Shown piece by piece: positions 39,433 to 44,964 of a DNA stretch of 64,000 nucleotides. The notes under the pieces are model-generated. The model was not told the DNA's origin and searched no databases. It worked only from the letters and a program-made list of their open reading frames with translations. The stretch covers positions 1 through 64,000 of the forward strand of contig JAQGHQ010000414.1 of NCBI GenBank assembly GCA_028288765.1, in the 5' to 3' direction. The number at the start of each line of letters is the position of its first letter. Positions within the stretch are counted from its first letter, which is position 1. The DNA comes from Gemmataceae bacterium. Its GTDB lineage: Bacteria > Planctomycetota > Planctomycetia > Gemmatales > Gemmataceae. The position numbers and the translations under genes are program-made.

Positions 39433-41394
39433 ATGGCCGCCGACCATGAACCGCCGACCCTGGCTGACTACGCCGTCACCGCGGTCAGCCCGGCGCTGAT
39501 CATGCTGATGGTCGGCAGCCTCGTCTTCTTCCTGGTCACCGTCCTGCCGACCGGGGAGTACAAAGAACGGCTGCTCTATACCACGTTCTTCTTTGTGTTC
39601 GGGGCCGTCCTGGTCGCCCGGATCGCGATCCAGTACGACTCCGCCCGGGCGACGATGTACGGCCTCGGGCTCGGGGTGGTCACGTTCCTGGCAATGTCCG
39701 CTTACGTCGAGTACCCGAGCGGGACCTGGCTGAAGTCGGCCGGATGGCTGGTGAACATCGGGCTCATGGGGCTGATCTGGTGGTCCGCCCACAAACTCAC
39801 GTGGGACTGCACCCACGTGGACGAGAACCGCGACGCCTCCGGCCGCGGGCTGCTCTCCGCCGCCGGCCTACCCGACGGAGAGGGTGGGAACGAGACCGAG
39901 AGTAACACCGATACCGCCGACGAGGACTCTAAACCGGGCGCGGCCAAGGAGCAGGAAAAGGACGGGGCTCAGAAACCGAAGAAGAAAGGCAAGAAGAAGC
40001 GAAAGAAGCAGTCGGCGTTCTCGGCATGGACCGCGCGGTGGTGGGCCCACCACGACAAGCAGAAAGACAAACCGCACACCCCGGGCGTCTGGGTGATCTA
40101 CTTCTCGCTCGCCGCGCTGCCCCTCTTCGCCATCGGCCAGTCACTCATTCCCCCGGACGACGACGACCGCCGCCGGGCCACCTTCCTGCAAATGGCGGTG
40201 TACGTCGGCAGCGGGCTCGGGCTGCTCGTCACGACCAGCTTGCTCGGGCTGCGGCGGTACCTCCGGCAGCGGAAAGCGAAGGTGCCCGGGTCGCTCACGG
40301 CCGGTTGGCTCGGACTCGGTGGGGTGCTCATCGTCGTCTTCCTGACGCTCGGCGCGTTCCTCCCGCGGCCGCACTCGGAGGTCCCCTGGTTCGGGCTCCA
40401 GCGGCCCGGGAAATCCGAACGGGAGGCGTCGCGGTACGCCCAGCTCCGCGATTCGGCCGGGAAGGGCGAGGGGGCCGAGGGGAACGTGTCCGAGAAGGGC
40501 GACGGCACGGCGTCCGGGAAGAACGGCGAACGCGGCGGGAGCAAGGGCCAGAAAGGAAGCGGCGGGAAGGGGCAGGGCAAGGGGAACAGCGGCGGGAAGG
40601 GGGAGAAATCGGACGGCGGGCGACAGGGCGAGGACGACCAGAGCAAGACCGGGGACGACCAGGATAAGAACGGAGACGACCAGAAGAAGAGCGAGGACGA
40701 CTCGTCCTCCAAGGACAAGGGGGGGAGCAACGCGGAGACCAGTCGCGAAGGGAAGGATGCAAAAGGACGGGCCGGGGAACGGGATCGGTCGACCGGTCGG
40801 TCCGCCCCCGACACGAAGATCGGGGGCGCGGTTGGGAAGATCGCCGGGTTCCTGAAGTGGGTGGTCGTGGCGATCGTGGTCTTCATCGTAATCGCCGCCG
40901 TGGTGGTCGCAATCCTCCGTTACCTCGCCCCGTTCACCGACTGGGCCCGGAACCTGCTCGACGCCCTGCGCAGCTGGTGGGCCGGGCTGTTCGGTAAGAA
41001 GAGGGTCCGGGCCCGCGAGGAGGCCGAGGTCGTGGCCCCCCTCGGCCCCGTGCGCCCGCCGCCGTTCCACACATTCTCCAACCCGTTCGGGGACGGGACC
41101 GCCGATGGTCGTGATCCGGCCGAACTGGTGGAGTACACCTTCGCGGCCCTCGACGCCTGGGCCTGGGACCGGGGCCACGGCCGGGAGCTGACCGAGACCC
41201 CGATGGAGTTCGCCGCCCGGCTCGGGGAAGGGTTCCCGGACTTCGCGGCGAACCTCCGCCGGCTCGCCAACCTCTATGCCCGCGTGGCGTACTCCACCAG
41301 TTCGCCGCCGGACAATACCCCCCAATTCCTCGAACAGGTCTGGGACCAGCTGGTCCACGGGGCCGACGTAGTGGCGGCCGGCGAATCGGTGTGA
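39433..41394 (+). CDS. Multi-pass membrane protein with Lys/Gly/Asp-rich linkers and DUF4129-like C-terminus
   Basis: The 653-residue protein has three or four N-terminal helices (about 20-130; PALIMLMVGSLVFFLVTVLP), a charged linker (KKKGKKKRKKQ), and three helices at about 215-320. A roughly 150-residue low-complexity region follows (GKGQGKGNSGGKGEKSDGG), then one helix (WVVVAIVVFIVIAAVVVAIL) and a cytoplasmic tail. The tail (PAELVEYTFAALDAWAWDRG, then TPMEFAARLGEGFPDF) matches the DUF4129 domain that ends TgpA-type transglutaminase-like membrane proteins. No transglutaminase domain is present. In such operons it normally accompanies MoxR ATPases and VWA proteins, as here. It is the first gene of a four-gene plus-strand unit. 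Confidence 0.85.
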   Translation: MAADHEPPTLADYAVTAVSPALIMLMVGSLVFFLVTVLPTGEYKERLLYTTFFFVFGAVLVARIAIQYDSARATMYGLGLGVVTFLAMSAYVEYPSGTWLKSAGWLVNIGLMGLIWWSAHKLTWDCTHVDENRDASGRGLLSAAGLPDGEGGNETESNTDTADEDSKPGAAKEQEKDGAQKPKKKGKKKRKKQSAFSAWTARWWAHHDKQKDKPHTPGVWVIYFSLAALPLFAIGQSLIPPDDDDRRRATFLQMAVYVGSGLGLLVTTSLLGLRRYLRQRKAKVPGSLTAGWLGLGGVLIVVFLTLGAFLPRPHSEVPWFGLQRPGKSEREASRYAQLRDSAGKGEGAEGNVSEKGDGTASGKNGERGGSKGQKGSGGKGQGKGNSGGKGEKSDGGRQGEDDQSKTGDDQDKNGDDQKKSEDDSSSKDKGGSNAETSREGKDAKGRAGERDRSTGRSAPDTKIGGAVGKIAGFLKWVVVAIVVFIVIAAVVVAILRYLAPFTDWARNLLDALRSWWAGLFGKKRVRAREEAEVVAPLGPVRPPPFHTFSNPFGDGTADGRDPAELVEYTFAALDAWAWDRGHGRELTETPMEFAARLGEGFPDFAANLRRLANLYARVAYSTSSPPDNTPQFLEQVWDQLVHGADVVAAGESV

Positions 41395-41430: not shown

Positions 41431-42423
41431 ATGAGTTCCGGCCCGATCACCGAGACGGTCACCCTGAGCCAGGCGAAGGAACTGATCCGGTGCCTGGCGC
41501 ACGAACAGAGCCTTCTCCTGCTCTCCCCGCCGGGGGTGGGGAAGTCCGACGTGGTCCGGCAGGCGGCGGCCGAGGCGGAACTCGAATGCAAGTCGCTGCT
41601 CGGCACCCAGATCGCCCCGGAAGACGTGTCCGGGGTGCCGCGGATTGTCGGCGAGCGGAGCGTGTTCTGCCCACCGCGGGTGCTGCTCCCCGAGAACCCG
41701 AAGACGTTCTGCCTATTCCTCGACGAACTCCCGGCCTGCTCGCCGGACGTCCAGAAGGCGTTCTACTCGCTCCTACTCGAACGCCGGATCGGGGAATATC
41801 TGCTCCCGCCCGGCACGTGGGTCGTGGCCGCCGGGAACCGGGCCGAGGACAGGGCCCTCGTCCGCACCATCTCCAGCGCGCTCGTCAACCGCGTGCTCGT
41901 CCTGAACGTCCGGATCGACGCGGCCGAGTGGCTGACGTGGGCGCGGGCGAACGGCGTCCGGCCGGACGTGACCGCGTTCGTCGAGAACAACCCGGACGCA
42001 CTCCTCCGGCCGGTCCCGGACAAGGCCGTCCCGTTCTCGACCCCGCGGGCGTGGGCGTCGCTGTCCCGGGCGCTAGACCTCGTCGGCGGCCGGGGGCAGC
42101 TGACCGAGCCCTTCGTGCGGGCGCTGGCGGTCGGGCGGGTGAGCGAGGAGGACGCCCGGCGGTTCGTCGCCGCCTGGGCCGGCTTGCCCTCTGGACTGCC
42201 CCGCGATCTGGAGGCGAAGTTGAACTGGTCGCTCGCCGAATTGGAACTCTCGGTCCGCGCGACGAACTGCCTGGAGGCCGAGGGGCTCACTACGGTCCGT
42301 GAGTTGGTGATTCGGGACGAAGACGAGCTGTTGGCGATCCGGAACTTCGGCGAGTCGACACTGCGGGAGGTCAAGGCCAAGCTCGCCGCACACGGGTTGG
42401 CGCTGGGGATGAAGATCTTATGA
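41431..42423 (+). CDS. MoxR-like AAA+ ATPase fused to an RNA polymerase alpha-CTD-like domain
   Basis: The 330-residue protein has an AAA+ core of the MoxR/AAA_5 type: Walker A PPGVGKS at 33-39, Walker [10 protein letters not shown] at 94-102, and sensor-1-like AAGN at 133-136, then [11 protein letters not shown]. Residues 264-330 form a second domain that matches the C-terminal domain of the RNA polymerase alpha subunit: [20 protein letters not shown], then [20 protein letters not shown], then GLALGMKIL. The residues equivalent to E. coli alpha R265, N268 and G296 are R276, N279 and G308. MoxR ATPases remodel client proteins with VWA partners. An alpha-CTD could bring the ATPase to DNA, RNA polymerase or activators; this is inference. 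The gene starts 36 bp after the membrane-protein gene. Confidence 0.9.
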
Positions 42424-42443
42424 AACATTAAATGTAAGATTTA

Positions 42444-42529
42444 CCACAGAGTCACAGAGGACACAGAGAGAAGATCAGGCCGAGATAAGAACTATTCAGT
42501 TTCTCGACCTCCGTGGCGTACCTCTGTGG
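42444..42529. repeat. Low-complexity inverted repeat between the two ATPase genes
   Basis: CCACAGAG (42444-42451) pairs with CTCTGTGG (42522-42529). The left arm continues as imperfect CACAGAGG/CACAGAGA units. It separates the paralogous ATPase genes. Confidence 0.65.
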
Positions 42530-42559
42530 CGAACGCGGCTTTTGCAGCAGATCGAACCC

Positions 42560-43639
42560 ATGACTCCGACCGCACCTCCACAGAGCGTCACCCTCTCCCA
42601 GGCAAAGGAGCTGATCCGCTGCCTGGCGGACGCGGAGAGCGTGTTGCTGCTCTCTCCGCCGGGGGTGGGGAAGTCCGAGATGGTACGGCAGGTCGCGGCC
42701 GGGGCCGGGCTCGAAGTCCGGTCCCTGCTCGGCACCCAGATCGCCCCGGAAGACGTGTCCGGCGTGCCGAAGGTGGTCGGCAGTCGTGCTGTGTTTTGTC
42801 CACCGCGGCTTCTCCTCCCCGGTGACGATAAGCCGTTCTGCCTGTTCCTCGACGAGCTTCCCGCTGCTCCACCGGAGGTGCAGAAAGCCTTCTACTCGCT
42901 GCTCCTCGAACGCCGGATCGGCGAGTACCGCCTGCCGCCCGGGACCTGGGTGGTCGCCGCCGGGAACCGGAGCGAGGACCGGGTCCTAGTCCGGACGCTC
43001 TCCAGCGCGCTGCTGAACCGGGTGTTCGTCATCCCCCTTCGTGTCGACCGCGACGAGTGGCAGACGTGGGCGGAAGCTAACGGGATTCGTGCGGATGTGC
43101 GGGCGTTCGTCCGTTTCGTCCCGCAGTCGCTTCAGCGGCCGGCCCCGCCGGACCCGGTCCCGTTCAGCACCCCGCGCGCGTGGGCGCTGCTCTCCCGCGA
43201 CCTCGACCTCGCGGAGGCGGCCGGGAAACTCGGGACCGACGAACGGCGGGCACTGGCGTTCGGCCGCCTCGCCCCCCACGACGCCGGCCTGTTCTGTGCG
43301 CTGTGCGAAGAGGGCCTCGCGGAGATGCGACCGGCGGGCGAGTACGTCACCGACCCGGCGCTTTTGCCGCGGACGGACACGGCGATGTGGTTCCTGGTGT
43401 CTCGCACCCGGCACGCGGTGGCGAACGACGAGCTGGCGCCCCGCGGGGTACGGATCGCCCCGGCGCAGGTGAACGCCTTCCTCGCCGCGGTCGGGGAGGA
43501 GTTCCGGTTCGCCCTGCTGCTCGACCACGTCGAGAAGTGGGCCGAACTCGGGGCGAGCGAGGTGATGTTGTCCACGCTCAGGGACGTGACCGGGCTCGAA
43601 ACAGAAATGCCGAATGCCCCATCAATACCCCGCCAATGA
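42560..43639 (+). CDS. MoxR-like AAA+ ATPase, second paralogue
   Basis: The 359-residue protein is closely related to the ATPase just upstream over its first about 240 residues, at both protein and DNA level. Walker [10 protein letters not shown], Walker [21 protein letters not shown] and AAGNRSEDRVLVRT are shared. The C-terminus differs: instead of the alpha-CTD it has about 110 residues of another helical domain (LLPRTDTAMWFLVSRTRHAV, then FALLLDHVEKWAELGASE). The two ATPases probably arose by tandem duplication and form a hetero-complex or serve different partners. The start is ATG 42560, not the upstream TTG. Its stop overlaps the next ATG by ATGA. Confidence 0.92.
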   Translation: MTPTAPPQSVTLSQAKELIRCLADAESVLLLSPPGVGKSEMVRQVAAGAGLEVRSLLGTQIAPEDVSGVPKVVGSRAVFCPPRLLLPGDDKPFCLFLDELPAAPPEVQKAFYSLLLERRIGEYRLPPGTWVVAAGNRSEDRVLVRTLSSALLNRVFVIPLRVDRDEWQTWAEANGIRADVRAFVRFVPQSLQRPAPPDPVPFSTPRAWALLSRDLDLAEAAGKLGTDERRALAFGRLAPHDAGLFCALCEEGLAEMRPAGEYVTDPALLPRTDTAMWFLVSRTRHAVANDELAPRGVRIAPAQVNAFLAAVGEEFRFALLLDHVEKWAELGASEVMLSTLRDVTGLETEMPNAPSIPRQ

Positions 43640-44964
43640 CGAACCCGACCCCCGAACGAGTTGCTCTGGCCAACGCCCGCAAGGCGCTCAAGTTGGTAGC
43701 CGCCAACCTCCCGCACCTCGCCGGGTTGTGCCAGGCGGTTCGGGTACGGGTGACGAAGAAGTACCCCGTCGCGGCGGTCGGGGCGTCCGGGCTCATGCTC
43801 GTCAACCCGAAGGTGTTCACGGAAACGCCCATCCCCGATCTCGTATTCGTCGTCGCCCACGAACTCCTGCATCTCGCCCTCGACACGTTCGGCCGGTCCG
43901 GCCACGCCCACCCGTATCTCGTGAACGTGGCCCACGACTACATCATCAACGACGTCCTGTCGGTCGAACTAAACCGCCCTGTCCCGCTCGGCGGATTGGT
44001 GTGGGAGGGGGCACGCCGCGAGTCGCTCGAAGCCCTCGTCGTGAAGATCGCGCAGAACTCGGCCGGGAACCCGTCCGGGTGCTGGTCGATCGAGCGGAAG
44101 AAGCCGGCCGGGCGGATGAAGCCGGGTAAGTCGGCGATCTCCGAGCAGCTCGAGAAGCTCGGGCTGATCCCGCCCGGGGGCGGCGAAGCTGACGGGGAGG
44201 GAGACGAGCCCGACGACTACCCGCGGGGCGACGCCCTGACGCCCGAGCAGGAGGGCGAGTTCGAGCCGGAGATCGGGCCAAAGGAGCGGCTGACGATACG
44301 GGAGAAGATTCGGCGGGAGGCGGTCCGGGCGGTGAGCCTCCACGAGCTCCGCGAGCAGATGGCGAAGGAGTCAGGCGGACAAGGCGGTCAGGGGGGTGAC
44401 GGCGGGGCGACCGAGACGTTCATGGACGCGATCCAGACCGCGTACCAGCCGCCGTGGCAGCTCGCCCTGCAGCACTGGCTCGACGCCGTCGCCCCCGGGC
44501 CCCGGAGTTTCGCCCGCCCGAGCCGCCGCGGGGCCGACCGGGCCGATGGGGTGATCCTCCCCGGCCGCAAGCGGGAAGGCTGGGCCCTGCACGTCGTGCT
44601 GGACACGAGCGGGTCGATGCTGAACACGCTGCCCCACATCCTCGGGCTCCTGGCGTCGTTCTGCGAAGGGTCGGGGGTGACGCAGGTGCATGTCATGCAG
44701 TGTGACGTGGGGGTGACCGCCGACGACTGGCTCGACCCCGCGCAGCTGCAAAGCTACAAGATCACCGGGTTCGGCGGGAGCGACATGCGGCCGGCGATGG
44801 GAGAACTCGCCGCCGACCCCGAGGTGTCGGCCGTCCTGGTCCTGACCGACGGGTACATCTCCTATCCGCAGGAGGAACCGCCGTACGCAGTTCTGTGGGG
44901 GCTGGTCGACGGGTGGGACGGCTTTACCCCGGGCTACGGCACGGTGGTTCAGGTGCGGACGTGA
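43636..44964 (+). CDS. Putative metallopeptidase (DUF2201) with VWA-like domain
   Basis: The 442-residue protein has an N-terminal zinc-metallopeptidase-like domain with H75-E-L-L-H79 (VVAHELLHLAL) and a downstream NVAHDYIINDV that can supply a third ligand. A charged linker follows (about 150-260), and then a VWA-like domain with the MIDAS motif DTSGSM, GFGGSDMRPAM and VLTDGYISYP. In DUF2201 families this architecture goes with a MoxR-like ATPase gene next door, as here, where the start overlaps the ATPase stop (ATGA). The VWA part is the likely partner of the ATPase and the peptidase part the effector. The target is unknown. Confidence 0.9.
   Translation: MTNPTPERVALANARKALKLVAANLPHLAGLCQAVRVRVTKKYPVAAVGASGLMLVNPKVFTETPIPDLVFVVAHELLHLALDTFGRSGHAHPYLVNVAHDYIINDVLSVELNRPVPLGGLVWEGARRESLEALVVKIAQNSAGNPSGCWSIERKKPAGRMKPGKSAISEQLEKLGLIPPGGGEADGEGDEPDDYPRGDALTPEQEGEFEPEIGPKERLTIREKIRREAVRAVSLHELREQMAKESGGQGGQGGDGGATETFMDAIQTAYQPPWQLALQHWLDAVAPGPRSFARPSRRGADRADGVILPGRKREGWALHVVLDTSGSMLNTLPHILGLLASFCEGSGVTQVHVMQCDVGVTADDWLDPAQLQSYKITGFGGSDMRPAMGELAADPEVSAVLVLTDGYISYPQEEPPYAVLWGLVDGWDGFTPGYGTVVQVRT

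Follow-up and report, generated by a model that had tools for sequence, protein, structure and literature searches.

Genes at the locus

The window (the whole stretch of DNA that was analysed, 64,000 nucleotides from a Gemmataceae bacterium) contains an intact open reading frame at positions 41431-42423 of the forward strand. It encodes a protein of 330 amino acids, a MoxR ATPase (here MoxR1) that carries the C-terminal domain of the RNA polymerase alpha subunit (alpha-CTD) at its C-terminus. The genes downstream encode a second, paralogous MoxR ATPase (MoxR2), which shares the ATPase motifs of MoxR1, and a protein with a metallopeptidase and a VWA domain (Table 1). Residues N136, R154 and R206 of MoxR1 presumably represent sensor-1, the arginine finger and sensor-2.

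Table 1. Coordinates of the MoxR1-MoxR2-VWA module and the upstream gene in the window.
Feature	Position	Strand	Remarks
DUF4129 protein	39433..41394	+	36 bases upstream of MoxR1
MoxR1 AAA+ core and lid	41431..42183	+	residues 1-251; Walker A GVGKS 35-39, Walker B FLDEL 96-100, N136, R154, R206
Short linker	42184..42204	+	residues 252-258; mean pLDDT 56 at 251-260, below 50 at 254-257
RNA polymerase alpha-CTD	42205..42420	+	residues 259-330; Pfam match 261-319
R276 codon, counterpart of E. coli alpha R265	42256..42258	+	kept in 10/10 fusions
MoxR2, paralogous MoxR ATPase	42560..43639	+	usual C-terminal tail, without alpha-CTD; upstream start at 42542 possible
Metallopeptidase-VWA protein	43636..44964	+	DUF2201_N, HELLH at residue 75; DUF2201 VWA, DxSGS at residue 323

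The start codon of the metallopeptidase-VWA gene overlaps the stop codon of MoxR2 (ATGA), and its product matches DUF2201_N (60.5 bits) and the DUF2201 VWA domain (48 bits), with both the HExxH motif and the MIDAS motif present. The original prediction placed the fused ATPase in a MoxR-VWA chaperone, and its VWA partner is this protein, encoded in the same module. A search of 15 related loci, some of which extend only a little way upstream, gave no match to the DUF4129 gene, which is probably just a neighbour.

A few other elements were observed around these genes. The ACCACAGAGTCACAGAGG motif at 42443-42460, between MoxR1 and MoxR2, is the single match in the window at up to two mismatches, and similar sequences were noted by eye in translations near rpoA and near a gene for a TPR protein. 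A threonyl-tRNA-synthetase-like gene is located downstream in the window and in two of the seven related loci listed (L055, L058), and also in L056 as judged by eye. Upstream of MoxR1 in four loci from genus group g7 of the same family (L053, L055, L056, L061) is a conserved gene with the motif MRV[IV]EQLVxHFWxRGALTRxEA...; its copy in L056 has no Pfam match at E 1e-5, and the motif is absent from all reading frames of the window.

The C-terminal domain is an RNA polymerase alpha-CTD

Residues 261-319 of the fusion protein match the Pfam family RNA_pol_A_CTD (PF03118) with a score of 72.2 bits (E 2.8e-20; cut-off 23.8), as compared to 14.4 bits for the generic helix-hairpin-helix family HHH_5 (cut-off 27). 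This rules out a chance similarity or a generic helix-hairpin-helix domain, the check that the original prediction had called for. In the PDB, 43 distinct sequences match the tail with E 1e-5 or better, every one of them an RNA polymerase alpha subunit. The N-terminal domain of alpha is absent from the fusion, since the NCBIfam models for alpha match residues 257-329 only (best score 69.2 bits, cut-off 302).

The ATPase part matches AAA_5 at residues 28-140 (27.8 bits, cut-off 22), contains the Walker A and B motifs and has a NorQ/CbbQ-like fold, which together identify it as a MoxR AAA+ protein. It falls below the cut-off for the MoxR family of the bpMoxR ternary system (PF20030; 21.0 bits, cut-off 27).

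Both parts were recovered in an AlphaFold2 model based on 78 alignment rows, with a mean pLDDT of 85.0 (57.6 in a model from 10 rows). The alpha-CTD was predicted confidently from residue 261 onwards (block means of 86-95), and weaker parts of the ATPase were located at residues 61-90 (57-71) and 141-150 (54). In a Foldseek search with the model, the top matches were NorQ-NorD VWA complexes and NorQ, with CbbQ2 at rank 18; E. coli RNA polymerase entries were found at ranks 48 and 50 among the 50 matches listed, with 39% identity over the CTD part. The profile, PDB and structural evidence thus all agree with the alpha-CTD first recognized at the MoxR C-terminus. Its span had been placed at residues 264-330, of which the identity of the domain stands and the start does not: the RpoA-like sequence begins at residue 260 and runs to 330 (about 71 residues), preceded by the low-confidence linker at 254-257.

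The genome of the window has four alpha-CTD hits over the Pfam cut-off: one in rpoA (G000:C234), one in the fusion and two in a TPR protein (G000:C380).

Comparison of the fused domain with RpoA

Residues 269-329 of the fusion align with residues 258-318 of E. coli alpha at equal length, so that the E. coli number is the fusion residue minus 11. The counterparts are R276 for R265, N279 for N268, E282 for position 271, G307 for G296 and T310 for position 299; E. coli numbers are used below. Compared with RpoA of the same genome, the fused domain is 77% identical at the protein level and 72% at the DNA level, and R265, N268, C269, G296, T299 and E302 are the same in both, while T298 is changed to Ser. 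It has been predicted that R265, N268 and G296 are kept, and the window copy indeed retains all five residues of the DNA-contact face (R265, N268, G296, T/S299, E302), where N268, G296, T/S299 and E302 are taken by us to contact DNA. By contrast, the Glu at position 271 and the Thr at position 299, which had been listed as replacements of Lys and Ser, do not hold as such, because E271 and T299 are present in 32 of the 32 Gemmataceae RpoA CTDs counted.

The residues R265, N268, C269, G296, T299 and E302 are present in 32/32 of these RpoA sequences. A foreign-looking rpoA copy, G048b, was left out of the counts and kept in the RpoA-CTD profile and in alignment A3; rpoA of G019 is not part of the set. 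Among the 10 fusions, R265 and E302 are kept in all, C269 in eight, T299 in seven, N268 in six and G296 in five, and many positions of the fold core are conserved while N268, G296 and T299 drift. The DNA face showed no significant excess of erosion: the mean number of departures was 2.0 per site at the contacts and 1.5 at the other RpoA-invariant sites (p 0.29; 0.16 within the domain).

Distribution of the fusion in the Gemmataceae and beyond

We identified the fusion in 10 of the 95 Gemmataceae genomes searched, which are the genome of the window and nine of the 19 genomes of genus group g7. It was absent from the five other genomes of the window's own genus. The presence in close relatives that had been asked for is thereby confirmed for the family (9/19 in g7) and not for the genus (0/5). 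In two of the fusions (G025, G018), the N-terminal part is truncated where the contig stops. An assembly artefact can be ruled out by the recovery of the fusion in 10 genomes, because two of these, G017 and G032, consist of only 2-3 contigs. In two other g7 genomes, G021 and G028, MoxR1 ends just before the position of the CTD, and three genomes of other genera contain a single MoxR of the same type.

A scan of GTDB for relatives of the MoxR part yielded 108 loci, of which the best 80 were kept. Seven of these 80 are fusions already counted within the family. Beyond the counted fusions, the loci L108 and L146 and a look-alike, L123, no locus among the best 80 reached E 1 with the family RpoA-CTD profile. 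In a sample of the phylum, the fusion was found in one of 392 genomes, the window's own (at E 1e-95), which is a weak negative result, with no more than six candidates scored in each genome. Six viral loci were also recovered as relatives, at 24-29% identity.

Conservation of the three-gene module

The metallopeptidase-VWA gene was searched for at E 1e-20 in 28 genomes chosen from 102 of the order. All 15 genomes that have these MoxR genes contain it, and the other 13 lack it. The gene does not adjoin MoxR2 in G018, G021, G028 and G032, and it is located on another contig in G019 and G022. Among the best 80 of the 108 GTDB loci, 76 have at least 800 bases of downstream sequence, the remaining four being too short, and the VWA gene was found downstream in 72 of the 76; the exceptions are L090, L091, L100 and L129. 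The HExxH motif is present in 71 and the MIDAS motif in 70 of these 72 genes. A joint loss of the CTD and the VWA gene was considered for G021 and G028 and ruled out, as the VWA gene is located elsewhere in these genomes. MoxR1 and MoxR2 of these two CTD-less genomes are separated by a gene of the sodium/hydrogen-exchanger family (PF00999, 155-159 bits; L061:6698-7927, L062:6970-8199).

Ancestry and selection

The fusion CTDs form one clade (10 sequences, support 99/91). Recent copying from the rpoA gene of the same genome is ruled out by this single clade along with the 77% protein and 72% DNA identity. A tree of 96 MoxR domains unites the first MoxR of the family with the first MoxR of L108, L123 and L146 and the MoxR of L100 in one group (14 sequences, 97/96), apart from the second copies. 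In the same tree, the unfused L090 and L091, which correspond to G021 and G028, group with the fused L088 (93/89, inner node 99/69), and their state therefore reads as a loss of the CTD. The alpha-CTD of the family fusions and that of the L108 type may have one origin or two: neither a single clade of both (AU test, p 0.286) nor a grouping of the fusions with the family RpoA (p 0.353) was rejected, in tests with few columns and long branches.

In this tree of 96 domains, which does not include G017 and G032, MoxR1 of the window branches beside, and not inside, the nine other family MoxR1 proteins, of which seven are fused and two are not. A recent transfer into the window's genus is not favoured by this branching and by the shared downstream threonyl-tRNA-synthetase-like gene; losses or an old transfer may account for the five other genomes of the genus, which are without the fusion. 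The Thermoguttaceae have a separate tandem duplication of MoxR, in which the first copy is again short; no alpha-CTD was found in their loci L103, L124 and L145, where the first MoxR of the pair lacks the tail (4-17 residues are left).

The pooled dN/dS was about 0.16 for the fusion CTD, 0.12 for the MoxR part and 0.11 for the RpoA CTDs from nine of the same genomes, values that are rough because dS is near saturation. The MoxR1 part has a mean column identity of 90%, with invariant ATPase motifs. On these results, the fusion is genuine and ancient, and selection acts on it, with purifying selection on the CTD. They bear on the idea that the CTD is a neutral passenger, a fragment of rpoA that was joined by accident and is slowly decaying. 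Such decay would agree with the changes in several DNA-contact residues and with the missing CTD of G021 and G028, whose neighbour in the MoxR tree is fused. We nevertheless consider it quite improbable, given that the domain has been kept across a clade in which synonymous sites are nearly saturated, with R265 and many core positions invariant; purifying selection by itself already strains this account.

The MoxR1 tail and single-chain MoxR pairs

We compared the sequences that follow the MoxR match in 14 loci with two MoxR copies. The second MoxR continues for 95-112 residues past the match, whereas the first is followed by 2-17 residues (five loci), by the alpha-CTD (six) or by an alpha-CTD-like connector (three). 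A profile of the tail of about 95 amino acids, built from 78 second or single copies, matched none of 16 copies of the first type (best score -0.6 bits). The alpha-CTD thus stands at the place where homologues of MoxR1 have this tail.

The connectors were found in L108, L123 and L146 from other planctomycetes, which encode MoxR1, the alpha-CTD-like stretch and MoxR2 in one frame. The CTD hits of L108 and L146 lie inside two-MoxR frames of 690 and 697 amino acids, and L123 has the same layout; all three proteins pass the cut-off of PF20030 over the whole tandem protein. The connectors scored 29.0 (L108), 23.1 (L146) and 16.8 bits (L123) against Pfam (cut-off 23.8), and 33.7, 27.1 and 20.6 in the genome search. 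From sequence similarity, the assignment as alpha-CTD appears clear for L108, borderline for L146 and weak for L123, which is recognizable only by its likeness to L146. The connectors gave no match with the profile of the MoxR tail, which rules out that they are leftovers of it. The genomes of L108, L123, L146 and L103 also contain frames of 68-225 amino acids, small proteins or fragments, with a distinct type of alpha-CTD that forms one clade (100/100; L212, L221, L222, L223, L226).

The alpha-CTD could be a mere compact helical building block that replaced the tail of MoxR1 and aids ring assembly or the contact between MoxR1 and MoxR2, with no link to transcription. Its location at the place of the homologues' tail, its use as a connector in L108, L123 and L146, where the R265 position is not Arg in L123 and L146, and a conserved fold core with drifting N268, G296 and T299 are all in line with such a role. 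Less easily reconciled with it are the retention of R265 and E302 in 10/10 fusions, the persistence of the module without the domain in G021 and G028, which would be odd for a needed assembly part, and the predicted low-confidence linker between the ATPase and the CTD. A purely structural role is possible, though we are rather doubtful of it.

Similarity to known systems

The closest solved folds to the ATPase core are the MoxR/VWA activases NorQ-NorD and CbbQ-CbbO, which likewise have a VWA partner. To our knowledge, they have one MoxR gene, no alpha-CTD and no HExxH peptidase domain in the partner.

As described in parts of one source, a finger of the VWA domain of NorD enters the pore of the NorQ hexamer (PMC13036017); NorQ and NorD are also treated in sections of PMC9976466. 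Group 2.2 jumbo phages carry a pair of a MoxR and a metallopeptidase-vWA chaperone, for which sections of the source propose a role in virion assembly (PMC7824862). There, as in the window, the MoxR adjoins a VWA protein whose N-terminal domain is a metallopeptidase; the module in the window differs from what those sections describe in being cellular and in having two MoxR genes, the first with an alpha-CTD. MoxR-vWA counter-invader systems are treated in parts of PMC12839542 and PMC7159879, and the terms 'RNA polymerase' and 'DUF2201' are absent from the main text of the latter. In the open-access literature, with subscription papers outside the scope of the search, we found no description of a MoxR-alpha-CTD fusion; nor did we find an open-access paper on DUF2201 together with MoxR.

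Alpha-CTDs outside RNA polymerase were also seen in other proteins. The TPR protein of the same genome (G000:C380, L002:568-1974) resembles the fusion in this respect, with two alpha-CTDs, and differs in being a TPR scaffold with no ATPase match. Two alpha-CTD hits in one open frame were found in 46 of 49 planctomycete genomes sampled, so the arrangement is apparently phylum-wide; the TPRs themselves were checked in the copy from the window's genome. Three further hits, in frames of 1428-1503 amino acids (L224, G500:C2:1208273-1208443; G117:C152:129220-129378; G149:C1:825964-826128), are perhaps PglW-like. PglW of type-2 BREX has an embedded alpha-CTD-like helical domain, according to parts of PMC12839542. 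It is thus comparable to the fusion as a different protein that contains such a domain (16 bits to the fusion with NCBIfam), but it is a kinase/NERD protein of about 1400-1600 residues that only weakly resembles the fusion CTD. As to membership in BREX, only a stretch of 57 residues of the fusion protein matches PglW, and PADLOC gave no match for either MoxR2 or the VWA protein.

Since phage enzymes attack alpha at R265 or in the linker, it is thinkable that the module serves in defence, with the alpha-CTD as bait for alpha-modifying or alpha-cleaving phage proteins, whose attack would switch the ATPase-protease. R265, which is ADP-ribosylated by Alt and ModA of phage T4 as stated in sections of PMC2988021, is invariant in the fusions while N268 and G296 are not, and, according to PMC7552054, the phage protein Rac brings about a cut in the alpha linker that severs the CTD. 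The counter-invader systems with MoxR, vWA and peptidase components proposed in passages of PMC12839542, and the alpha-CTD-like domain of PglW, would fit with this as well. We nonetheless judge a decoy function very improbable, as PADLOC at E 0.001 gave nothing for MoxR2 or the VWA protein and matched the fusion protein only via its CTD (PglW, 18.9 bits), the MoxR1 part shows strong conservation instead of rapid evolution, and the gene that follows, in the window and in the two relatives scanned, is of housekeeping type (threonyl-tRNA-synthetase-like).

A possible link to transcription

Tentatively, and with slightly less than even confidence, we propose that the module encodes one ATP-driven machine: a ring made of both MoxR proteins would act on the metallopeptidase-VWA protein, with the alpha-CTD as an additional arm for docking. 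MoxR1-alpha-CTD, MoxR2 and the metallopeptidase-VWA protein would together form one protein-remodelling machine. The single-chain proteins, with MoxR1, connector and MoxR2 in one polypeptide, argue that both ATPases work in one assembly and, along with the tail-less partner, suggest a mixed ring. By analogy with NorQ and NorD, this ring would engage the VWA domain and drive the partner, a putative zinc peptidase. In the ancestor of the fusions found, or earlier, a tail-less MoxR1 may have gained a CTD copied from rpoA at the place of the tail. On its short, flexible linker beside the ring, the CTD would act as an accessory docking module.

In RNA polymerase, the partners of the alpha-CTD include activators, sigma, NusA and A/T-rich upstream DNA, and docking may bring the machine to something that normally contacts the domain, be it an activator, sigma, NusA or such DNA. 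The CTD is evidently dispensable, because G021 and G028 keep MoxR1, MoxR2 and the VWA gene without it, which suggests that it tunes the machine rather than making it. The original prediction had the ATPase recruited to UP-like DNA or to activators. For UP-like DNA, the data do not support this as a rule across the fusions, as N268 is lost in 4/10, G296 in 5/10 and T299 in 3/10 of the fusions versus 0/32 in RpoA, and two genomes keep the module without the CTD. With the DNA face intact in the window copy and not in about half of the relatives, binding to UP-element DNA is no more likely than a structural role or contact with a protein. A tie between the fused MoxR and transcription is plausible, judging from sequence. 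Counting against the docking arm on a mixed ring are the drift of N268, G296 and T299, the CTD-less modules, the connectors of L123 and L146, and the five genomes of the window's genus without the fusion.

A more far-reaching version, which we regard as unlikely, is that a ring-driven metalloprotease with a captured alpha tail docks on promoter DNA or transcription factors and remodels or cuts transcription-bound proteins or, more boldly still, guards its tail as phage bait.

The machine itself is of a known kind; its new features are the domain acquired from RNA polymerase and the partner ATPase that lacks the tail. The fusion provides a clean natural case of a piece of RNA polymerase that was copied onto an unrelated ATPase and retained, and the recurrent pairing of a tail-less with a full MoxR, at times in one polypeptide, suggests that mixed MoxR rings occur. 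The targets of MoxR-VWA machines are mostly unknown; if the CTD still docks to alpha-CTD partners, the fusion would tie such machines to transcription and may offer a handle on their substrates.
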